This document shows, one piece after another, positions 8,391 through 10,343 of a DNA stretch of 64,000 nt; position 1 is the first letter of the stretch, and each line of letters opens with the position of its first letter. The position numbers and the translations under genes were made by a program. This stretch comes from Phycisphaeraceae bacterium (GTDB lineage Bacteria > Planctomycetota > Phycisphaerae > Phycisphaerales > UBA1924), in contig RECQ01000035.1 of NCBI GenBank assembly GCA_007693965.1, forward strand, positions 1 to 64,000. The letters are read 5' to 3'. Below the pieces are notes generated by a model, which saw only the letters and a list, made by a program, of their open reading frames with translations, was not told where the DNA came from and searched no databases.

Positions 8391-8627
8391 GGGATGAACT
8401 CGGAGGTCGCGGAGTGCGCGGAGGGAGACGGAGGAGGAAGAGAATGGGTTCGGATCAGGAAACGTAATTCAATTCCTGAGCCGGCCTCCGCATCCGACGT
8501 TCATCGATCTGCGGCGTGACGGCGCCCGCAGCCAATCCGGGACATCGTCCGAGCCGGAAGCGCACACCCTCTCTCTTTTCCGACTCCCTCTTCCTCCGCG
8601 CACTCCGCGACCTCCGCGTTCATCCCC
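8391..8627. repeat. 237-bp element with ~34-bp terminal inverted repeats
   Basis: The left end GGGATGAACTCGGAGGTCGC (8391 onward, continuing through GGAGTGCGCGGAGG) is matched with about one mismatch by the reverse complement of 8593-8627. The core has no credible ORF. The right end stops three bases before the ruvC stop codon. A further CGGAGTGCGCGGAG word lies outside the left end at about 8356. It looks like a non-autonomous MITE-type element. It fills the 300-bp gap between ruvC and the ntrC-type gene. Confidence 0.75.
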
Positions 8628-8630
8628 CGT

Positions 8631-9116
8631 TCACCGAGCCGCCTCGCACCGGCGCACCGCGCACAGGGCGATCGCGATGGCGTCGGCGACGTCCGGCGGC
8701 GACGGAGCCGCGGCGAGTCCGAGCTGGGCGCGGACCGAGTCCTGCATCTGGGCCTTGCCGGCGTGGCCGTTGCCGGTGAGTGATTTCTTGACCTCGGTGG
8801 CGCCGAGTTCGGAGACGCCCACGCCGGCGCGCTCGGCGACGAGGAGCGTCACGCCGCGGGCGTGGCCCATGGTGATGGCGGTCGTGGGGTGGCGGTAGTG
8901 CGAATAGAGCTTCTCGACGCAGACCATGTCGGGTGAGAGTCGTTCGATGAGCGCGCAGAGGTCGGCTTCGAGTTCGCACAGTCGTCGGGGGAGGGAGTCG
9001 CCGGGGCGGAGCCGCACCACGCCGGCTTCGATGAGGATCTCCTCGCCGGCGCCGCCACGCTCGATGCAGCCGTAGCCGGTGATGCGGAGGCCGGGGTCGA
9101 TGCCGAGTATGCGCAT
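8631..9116 (-). CDS. ruvC: Holliday junction endonuclease RuvC
   Basis: RuvC resolves Holliday junctions by paired nicks, working with RuvAB. The product has 161 residues from the ATG at 9116, where the text begins MRILGIDPGLRITGYG. The open frame extends 20 codons upstream without family similarity. The four acidic catalytic residues are all visible: Asp7, Glu68 (VCVEKLY), Asp142 and Asp145 (PPDVADAIAIA). ruvA lies 47 kb away at 56570, and ruvB is not in the window. The stop codon abuts a repeat element. Confidence 0.96.
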   Translation of the reverse strand: MRILGIDPGLRITGYGCIERGGAGEEILIEAGVVRLRPGDSLPRRLCELEADLCALIERLSPDMVCVEKLYSHYRHPTTAITMGHARGVTLLVAERAGVGVSELGATEVKKSLTGNGHAGKAQMQDSVRAQLGLAAAPSPPDVADAIAIALCAVRRCEAAR

Positions 9117-9255
9117 GTCCGCAAACACTCCGTGGTTTGGGCGGCTGGTGGGCGATGTCAAACGGGGATGGTCCACTTGCAGATTATCACCCCGGATCGA
9201 GTGACCCGGGACACGTCAGAGGGCGAGTTCCTGCATCGGTTTCCGAATCAATGGG

Positions 9256-9283
9256 CTGACAAAATCAGGTCTATTGCTATACT
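9256..9283 (+). promoter_or_regulatory. Sigma70-type promoter for a small RNA
   Basis: CTGACA at 9256-9261 and TATACT at 9278-9283 are separated by 16 bp. This is one of the closest matches to the consensus promoter seen in the window. It points into the ruvC/ABC intergenic gap, where there is no plus-strand gene. Confidence 0.55.
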
Positions 9284-9289
9284 GCCGCC

Positions 9290-9351
9290 GTCATCCACTT
9301 TGCCCCCGGAAGCCGGATCGGTCGCGTTCATCGCACCGGTCCGGTTTTTTT
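9290..9351 (+). ncRNA. Candidate ~60-nt small RNA ending in an intrinsic terminator
   Basis: The transcript would start near 9290 from the promoter at 9256-9283. It would end at a strong terminator: the stem pairs 9313-9322 (CCGGATCGGT) with 9335-9344 (one wobble pair), followed by seven Ts at 9345-9351. No start codon with a ribosome-binding site lies between. It sits in a 350-bp gap between two minus-strand genes. It does not look like 6S, SRP or tmRNA. Whether it is expressed is inference. Confidence 0.45.
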
Positions 9352-9467
9352 CTGGAATTTGCGCTTTCGCGGAGCGCTCCGGCGGCGTCCGACGCCGCTG
9401 CGGCCGCCGCTTCCCCGGCGAGGCGAGCAGGCAAGAGAAAACGTCATCGCAATCGATGATCGACCGT

Positions 9468-10232
9468 TCAGGCGTCTGACCCGCTGAGCAGGCGGTCGGT
9501 CTCGATGAGGCCGTCCTTGAGGCGCACGATGCGCTGGCAGCGGTCGGCGACATCGTCATCGTGCGTGACCATGATGATGGTCATGCCCTTGGCGTGCAGG
9601 TCGTCGAAGACGCTGAGGATCGCTTCGCCGGTGGCGGAGTCGAGGTTGCCTGTGGGCTCGTCGGCCATGAGTACGACAGGATCGCTCACCAGGGCCCGCG
9701 CGATGGCGGCGCGCTGCTGCTGGCCGCCGGAGAGTTCGCTCGGCCGATGACCCACGCGATCGGCGAGGCCGACCAGTTCGAGTTTTTCGAGCGCCTTGGC
9801 GCGGCGTTCGGCCTTGGGGACGCTCTGGTAGAAGAGCGGCACCTCGGCGTTCTCGGCGATGGTGAGCTGGCTGATGAGGTTGAAGGCCTGGAATATGAAG
9901 CCGATCTTCTTGCCGCGGAAGACGCTGAGCGTCTCGTCCTCCATCGTCGAGACGTCGCGGCCGTCGAGGAAGTACTGGCCGTGTGTGGGGCGGTCGAGGC
10001 AGCCGAGAATGTTCATCAGCGTGGACTTGCCGGAACCCGAGGCGCCCATGATGGCGACGTACTGCCCGCGTGGGATGGTGACATCGACGCCGCGGAGCGC
10101 CTCGACGAGGACGCCGCCGTCGGGCTTGTAGTAGACCTTGGTCACGCCTCGTAGGTCGGCGACGTTGGCGCACTCGCCCGGCGCCGTCGGCGGCGCCTGC
10201 TCGGAACTGTGGGACGTCTGAAGTGTGGTCAT
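9468..10232 (-). CDS. ABC transporter ATP-binding protein, LolD/MacB type
   Basis: This cytoplasmic ATPase subunit of the LolD/MacB/FtsE class powers lipoprotein release or macrolide/peptide efflux permeases. Walker A GASGSGKST, signature LSGGQQQR and Walker B VLMADEPTGNLD with the H-loop THDDD are all present. I take the ATG at 10232 (MTTLQTS), giving 254 residues; a start seven codons upstream is possible. No permease gene is next to it, so the partner must be encoded elsewhere. The orphan arrangement makes the substrate unassignable. Confidence 0.88.
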   Translation of the reverse strand: MTTLQTSHSSEQAPPTAPGECANVADLRGVTKVYYKPDGGVLVEALRGVDVTIPRGQYVAIMGASGSGKSTLMNILGCLDRPTHGQYFLDGRDVSTMEDETLSVFRGKKIGFIFQAFNLISQLTIAENAEVPLFYQSVPKAERRAKALEKLELVGLADRVGHRPSELSGGQQQRAAIARALVSDPVVLMADEPTGNLDSATGEAILSVFDDLHAKGMTIIMVTHDDDVADRCQRIVRLKDGLIETDRLLSGSDA

Positions 10233-10343
10233 CACTCGGAGTCTACCGCTCAACCCGGCTCCGGCGGCGGTGGAACCCGGGCTTCCGGCCTCTGGAACGC
10301 TGCGAGAGGATGAGAAAATGGGAAATCCCCGCAGACGCCGCCC

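Follow-up and report, generated by a model that had tools for sequence, protein, structure and literature searches.

A candidate family of sibling small RNAs in the Phycisphaerales, with a near-invariant C-rich segment 5' of a variable terminator hairpin

The window analysed here, a stretch of 64,000 nucleotides from a Phycisphaeraceae bacterium, includes a gap between two minus-strand genes, ruvC (PF02075) and a gene for an ABC-transporter ATPase (PF00005) that we take to be LolD/MacB-like. An initial annotation, made from the letters of the window, described in this gap a plus-strand promoter that serves neither neighbor, CTGACA-N16-TATACT, followed by a 10-bp stem and seven Ts with no ORF in between. 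These elements are present at 9256-9283 and 9313-9351, and the flanking genes are as described. The -10 hexamer TATACT occupies 9278-9283, after a 16-nt spacer, with TGC immediately 5' of it, and the promoter scores 10/12. The stem starts 29 bases past the -10 element, comprises ten pairs including one G-T, and is topped by an inner stem of 3 bp. The ORF list holds no separate small gene in the gap, only ORFs that run through it, hairpin included. Coordinates are collected in Table 1. Past the 3' end of ruvC, a long inverted repeat of the type ...CCTCCGCGCACTCCGCGACCTCCGCG... was noticed by eye at 8402-8440 and 8578-8624.

Table 1. Features of the predicted small RNA locus and its neighbors in the window.
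Feature	Coordinates	Strand	Remarks
-35 element CTGACA	9256..9261	+	5/6 match to TTGACA; counterpart is TCGACA or TGGACA in copies of genomes G021, G007, G001, G076 and G086
Extended -10 element TGC-TATACT	9275..9283	+	hexamers TACTCT, TAGTCT, TAGGCT or TATACT at the corresponding site in copies of the same five genomes
Predicted small RNA, ~62 nt	9290..9351	+	inferred from promoter and terminator; start 7 nt past the -10 element, 3' end set at the last T of the tract
5' leader GTCATCCACTTT, predicted unpaired	9290..9301	+	positions 9293-9301 G-poor across the family; mean unpaired probability 0.92
Conserved segment GCCCCCGGAAG, the family signature	9302..9312	+	C-run predicted unpaired; GGAAG predicted paired with the U-tail
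Terminator hairpin	9313..9344	+	stem 9313-9322/9335-9344; inner stem 9324-9326/9332-9334; loop TTCAT; covariation
T7 tract of the intrinsic terminator	9345..9351	+	post-stem columns mostly T in aligned members
ruvC (context only, outside the RNA)	8631..9176	-	PF02075, E 2.2e-34; adjoins 9/9 ruvC-side copies
ABC-transporter ATPase (context only)	9468..10253	-	PF00005, E 2e-34; present at 8/9 ruvC-side loci

The promoter, taken alone, is at chance level: the first 20 kb of the window contain 2 promoter-like sites against 2.0 expected, the site at 9256 being the better one. A search of both strands for the pair of signals (a promoter of at least 9/12 and a stem of 8-12 bp with a loop of 3-14 and T6, the T-run starting within ~110 nt) found one instance in the 64-kb window and none in 60 dinucleotide-preserving shuffles. 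The hairpin is missing from the output of a separate terminator scan because that scan accepts only loops of 3-8. The predicted RNA, folded as 9290-9352, has an energy of -28.1 kcal/mol (z = -4.9), a value that 0 of 200 shuffles equaled.

BLAST with the surrounding 201-base region against 61 genomes returned matches in seven: the window's own genome, four relatives, and two (L006 and L007) judged by eye to be chance. The four relatives belong to the window's family and to other genera, and they match 9296-9353 or most of that span. A covariance model built from these five true sequences, R1, was searched against 120 genomes of the window's family. The predicted RNA adjoins ruvC, in antisense orientation, in nine genomes representing nine genera, the window's and eight others; within the sequence compared, the ABC gene lies on its other side at eight of the nine loci, all but that of G021. 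Promoters were found at the corresponding position in all five ruvC-side copies that were read, with the hexamers given in Table 1. Three of the 18 places reported by R1 (L022, L023 and L024) were dropped by eye, the signature being missing, while L020 was kept as a real copy with the support of L029.

R1 also found further copies at unrelated loci; these retain the signature, and their stem differs. Thirteen of 14 such loci were compared for context, L035 being left out; nine have in common a downstream MarR-like gene, and seven of those also an upstream UbiA-family gene, labels that rest on a Pfam check of one representative each. A pattern consisting of GCCCCCGGAAG, a gap and TTTTT matched in 16 of the 120 family genomes, one of these matches (L032) being dropped by eye as chance; the reversed pattern, used as a control, gave 3 matches in total. 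Genome G010 has one copy of each kind, beside ruvC and at another locus, and G065 has four copies. The window's own genome yielded one.

Alignment of the copies shows what has been held constant. In a set of 23, hand-trimmed by row and aligned with MAFFT, 94.5% of the alignment cells in the stem are paired; double-sided changes number 83, compared with 33.6 in shuffles, and the covariation score is 0.836, slid controls reaching at most 0.153. A larger alignment of 64 distinct rows, which includes most of the first and is biased toward the second covariance model, R2, by which it was found and to which it was fitted, gives 96.4% paired cells. Its double-sided changes number 196 where shuffles yield 60.7, and its covariation score of 0.775 compares with no more than 0.104 in slid controls. 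No conserved reading frame is apparent: the spacing from signature to T-run shifts by single bases among relatives, and changes in the stem compensate one another. The initial annotation had proposed a conservation check among Phycisphaerae, and such a comparison finds promoter and stem both kept, with compensatory changes above shuffles and slid controls. It also goes further than that annotation: judged from the aligned sequences, the most conserved part is GCCCCCGGAAG, just 5' of the hairpin, which is nearly invariant, while the hairpin changes in sequence and keeps its pairing.

CCCC and GGA of the signature occur in 66 of 66 model-found copies, and 60 of these carry CCCCCGGAAG, the C-run being five or six long; a hairpin-only row, L057:49-80, was left out of this count (66 of 67 kept) and stayed in the covariation count of the larger alignment. 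Part of this invariance is a matter of ascertainment, because the models and patterns reward the signature. Variants were nonetheless recovered, among them GACCCCGGAAC in G048. Paralogues in G308, G044 and G048 keep the signature and differ in their stems; those in G065 and in G040 have stems that are alike. The variant copies in G048 (L300 and L301, on contigs C82 and C37) were seen to form tandem pairs ~160 and 214 nt apart. One copy in G308 (L287, C1:2994000-2994600) carries a doubled signature, GCCCCCGGAATCCCCGGA, 5' of its hairpin.

Searches with R2 outline the distribution of the family. Matches occurred in 49 of 163 genomes of the window's family at E<=0.01, weak and mostly unread ones included, in 49 of 298 genomes of a class sample at E<=0.001, the weak matches again mostly unread, and, at E<=1e-4, in 15 of 392 genomes of a phylum sample. 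Searches on this scale evaluate a small number of candidates in each genome and miss weak matches. Fourteen of the 15 phylum-level genomes, the window's own included, belong to the window's order. The fifteenth, G685, lies outside it and matches in the hairpin only. A third model, R3, was applied to 38 genomes, many of them selected because they already had hits, and matched in 31. By family the results were 8/10 (f1), 6/6 (f2), 1/1 (f3), 0/3 (f4), 4/4 (f5) and 10/10 (f6), the sole f3 copy having the signature and a weak T-run when read. Outside the order, two of four genomes matched, G240 in full and G211 in the hairpin only. The hairpin-only matches of G211 and G685 were not counted as members, and G400 (L095) was judged by eye to be a non-member. 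Covariance-model matches thus span five families of one order, with up to 12 copies per genome (G308), and the family is present in a complete sequenced genome, that of ZRK34 (CP050848.1).

A pattern scan of GTDB r220 contigs matched at least 120 stretches; among the matches listed, 74 of 80 loci are labeled Planctomycetota, five only as bacteria, and one Actinomycetes. The last of these, L129, was judged a chance match in spite of 25.2 bits with R2, and was excluded before contexts and promoters were counted. Within ~2.5 kb of the remaining 79 loci among the matches listed, genes of a ruvC cluster occur at 27, of an ABC-ATPase cluster at 28, of a PTPS cluster at 33 and of a cyclophilin cluster at 31, in varying positions and on varying strands; the cluster names come from Pfam for one representative each of ruvC, PTPS and cyclophilin, and from inspection by eye for the ABC-ATPase. 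In G040 an RNase P RNA gene (L097, 1026-1425) directly adjoins a copy. By its sequence relationships, the predicted RNA of the window belongs to a family of "sibling" small RNAs with multiple copies, and the order concerned is the Phycisphaerales.

Transcription signals were assessed on 139 distinct copies, a set freed of duplicates and of copies whose upstream sequence was too short or was ambiguous. Of the 139, 65 have a sigma-70-like promoter scoring at least 9/12 within 90 nt upstream, compared with 9.9 when their sequences are shuffled, and for a score of at least 8/12 the figures are 108 and 39.0; 74 copies fall below 9/12 and seven have no promoter-like pair at all. For the 65 copies with the better promoters, the distance from the end of the -10 element to the C-run is mostly 15-17 nt. 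Across the 139 copies, the nine positions 5' of the signature are strongly depleted of G, whose frequency at every one of them is 2-9%. The C-run is predicted to be unpaired (mean probability 0.92, and above 0.5 in 135 of 139 folds), while GGAAN is predicted to be paired (mean unpaired probability 0.14), its partner in the window's RNA being the U-tail. The RNA would therefore consist of a hairpin with its U-tail sequestered and, at the 5' end, a free C-rich extension, and the invariance of GGAAG, predicted to be paired, calls for some reason other than service as a free seed. By eye, some copies, for example L108, L166 and L169, show an additional hairpin ahead of the signature.

In sum, the comparison shows the transcription signals, the paired hairpin, the near-invariant GCCCCCGGAAG, a location conserved in one lineage, and spread to other loci. 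The reading of 9256-9351 as a short hairpin-ended transcript gains from the ruvC-side copies in eight other genera, the covariation and the promoter enrichment, and we regard it as very probable that 9290-9351 is a real, conserved RNA gene. Our preferred explanation as a whole, to which we assign a probability of roughly 0.6, is a stand-alone gene for a sibling small RNA, transcribed from a sigma-70-type promoter of its own, ended by an intrinsic terminator, and acting preferably by pairing of its C-run. The transcript would start near 9290 and expose an unstructured, G-poor and C-rich 5' tail (...CACUUUGCCCCC). Pairing of its U-tail with GGAAG would make the RNA compact, in genomes whose search for Hfq found none. 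The exposed C-run would then pair with G-rich regions in a small number of target RNAs, perhaps a single one, and siblings under different promoters may channel different signals into the same recognition tail. Antisense pairing is suggested by the exposed C-rich tail and by the signature common to several siblings, and perfect pairing of the 11-mer has a computed energy of -23.6 kcal/mol. Action by base pairing through the C-run, taken as a claim of its own, seems to us about evenly balanced.

Searches for pairing targets gave no support to this mechanism. In 543 kb of sequence from relatives (79 loci), complements of the signature are not enriched near predicted starts, the 7-mers numbering 8, where the reversed control gives 20, and the 8-mers 1, where it gives 4; these start-region tests have limited power, and the starts come from home-made gene prediction. 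Away from starts in the same sequence, 8-mers number 141 against 82 and 9-mers 39 against 19, some of them in GC-rich repeats. In G395 (400 kb, 279 predicted genes) seven core 7-mers occur 0 times each, and GGGGGC occurs twice against ~4 expected. Perfect 10-nt complements number 37 against 10 for the reversed control in the window's genome, and 12/6, 3/5, 14/12, 12/8 and 10/8 in five relatives. The 36 sites in the window's genome other than the RNA itself divide into 10 sense in ORFs, nine antisense, 14 outside predicted ORFs and three near a predicted start, and many of the sites lie in GC-rich, low-complexity sequence. This genome, G000, shows an excess of CTTCCGGGGG (for example at L377, L400 and L404), sometimes doubled 12-24 bp apart, with less or no excess in relatives.

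Several candidate targets were set aside. Clusters of complements in L137, L157 and L172 are, by eye, low-complexity or coding repeats. The pattern CCGGGGGC-N-ATG in G308 and G361, read at 15 places among the matches listed, resolved into extra copies of the small RNA, an intergenic repeat and coding matches, with no clear target. An intergenic-looking repeat in G308 (L282 and L283) has inverted ends (CGTCATTCCCGC ... GCGGGAGTGACGG) and contains a match to the signature that is taken as chance. The RNase P RNA beside the L097 copy was checked for six 6-mers that could pair with the signature and contains none of them.

Because these tests gave pairing no support, a protein partner is a serious rival. 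The RNA might act mainly by titrating or recruiting CsrA or a KH-domain protein through its CCCC-GGA part, in the manner of the CsrB/RsmZ-type RNAs. CsrA was found in 41 of 41 genomes (the window's and 40 relatives), mostly as two genes, and Hfq in 0 of the 41 over the cut-off, with one sub-threshold match in G015 and five of 14 control genomes positive. The invariant GGA fits such a role, and several siblings per genome would multiply the binding sites. Yet the signature has one GGA and not many, and that one is predicted to pair with the U-tail instead of sitting in a loop. CsrA also occurs in genomes without a hit for the RNA, such as G022, and the presence of CsrA or Hfq does not separate genomes with the RNA from those without. 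Moreover, CsrA requires less than an 11-nt signature with a run of five C. We regard action mainly through a protein as possible but unlikely, and retain pairing of the C-run as the preferred mechanism.

The remaining alternatives are each much less probable. Chance co-occurrence of a functionless promoter and hairpin, which the chance-level frequency of the promoter alone might suggest, is scarcely credible given the conservation, the covariation, the promoter enrichment and the 60 shuffles without such a pair. A minus-strand terminator stopping transcription toward ruvC, which the initial annotation had offered as its second reading and which the position between two minus-strand genes might favor, is refuted, because CTTCCGGGGGCAAAG, and no T-run, comes after the stem on that strand; copies elsewhere, moreover, have different neighbors and orientations. 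Nor is it at all probable that the RNA is a leader or attenuator for a same-strand gene downstream. Such an arrangement would suit the one recurrent locus (9/13 loci) where the MarR-like gene starts on the same strand within ~170 nt downstream, but the next gene in the window is on the opposite strand, paralogues adjoin other genes, and over the 79 loci among the matches listed the orientation of the next gene is mixed (29 same strand, 28 opposite, 22 none predicted, the strands resting on home-made gene prediction), so that the RNA is not a leader. A site for DNA recombination or integration, the last alternative, draws on copies of one genus that lie at the border of integrase-bearing elements. 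In G308, five copies (L366-L370) lie 57-65 nt downstream of genes for near-identical tyrosine recombinases of 466-468 aa (92-94% identity; Pfam was applied to one of them), and another copy (L371) adjoins a remnant; in most pairwise alignments there, similarity stops at the 3' end of the terminator, hairpin and T-run included. Against it, L366 and L370 remain alike for ~180 nt past that end, and promoters and T-runs are present at copies where this integrase was not seen. Among 348 other loci, many of them overlapping, the integrase appears only in shorter pieces of the same places and in a weak match at L233. Integrases, for their part, often target RNA genes, those for tRNA and tmRNA being frequent targets according to PMC4383910. 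We therefore hold it improbable that the element is such a site and not an RNA gene; the arrangement in G308 may reflect integration at the RNA gene or carriage of an extra sibling.

Past the 3' end of the RNA the integrase-linked sequences in G308 differ, and in L369, as in L372 of G361, a small HTH_17 gene is followed by a large gene that is helicase-like by eye and may be defense-related. In L376, also from G308, a full copy of the integrase lies ~1.1 kb upstream of a double-signature copy.

The family has no counterpart in Rfam 15. The window gave no matches, 20 copy-bearing loci gave only the RNase P RNA beside one copy, and a lax search of 9200-9400 gave two matches, both far below gathering scores. 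No description of such a family appeared among the results from the literature searched, which included few papers of subscription journals. We regard it as a new family of a kind already known, that of intrinsically terminated sibling small RNAs. NgncR_162/163 of Neisseria and LhrC1-5 of Listeria are trans-acting sibling RNAs, and they resemble the Phycisphaerales family in having several short paralogous RNAs per genome with a common recognition segment. Here, in contrast, the segment GCCCCCGGAAG lies in the 5' tail, no Hfq was found, there is no Rfam match, and the hairpin sequence can vary even between paralogues. The sibling concept itself is set out in PMC6262261 and PMC9973317, and the former also describes CsrB/RsmZ-type RNAs as capable of duplication.

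The likeness to CsrB and RsmZ consists in the GGA and in the presence of CsrA in every genome tested. CsrB-type RNAs carry many GGA motifs in hairpin loops, whereas here a 60-nt RNA has one signature GGA, predicted to be paired. RsaE/RoxS, FsrA and CcsR are likewise short, some of them multi-copy, with an exposed C-rich stretch and an intrinsic terminator. Their C-rich motifs pair with Shine-Dalgarno regions, unlike the Phycisphaerales family, for which complements are not enriched near predicted starts. The Rhodopirellula-1 motif is a candidate RNA of Proteobacteria and Planctomycetes, hence from the same phylum; its table row, which carries no Rfam accession, reads "? y ?" (PMC2864571). With these entries taken as RNA, cis-regulatory and riboswitch, cis-regulation would be unlike the Phycisphaerales RNA.

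A broader picture, which we offer tentatively and consider unlikely as it stands, would be an order-wide, Hfq-free system in which each genome has one to a dozen siblings with a common C-rich 11-nt signature, all else, hairpin and promoter included, being free to vary. Its dedicated partner, an RNA-binding protein or a single target other than an mRNA, would be one not seen in other phyla, and in some genera mobile elements with an integrase would bear further copies, or target them, and so enter the same network.

Few small-RNA families are on record for the Planctomycetes-Verrucomicrobia-Chlamydiae group, eight of them in one Rfam-based table (PMC9029176), and Hfq did not exceed the cut-off in any genome examined here. 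Since the family is frequent in its order, has a near-invariant segment and is present in the complete genome of ZRK34, the question of riboregulation in these bacteria would become directly testable.
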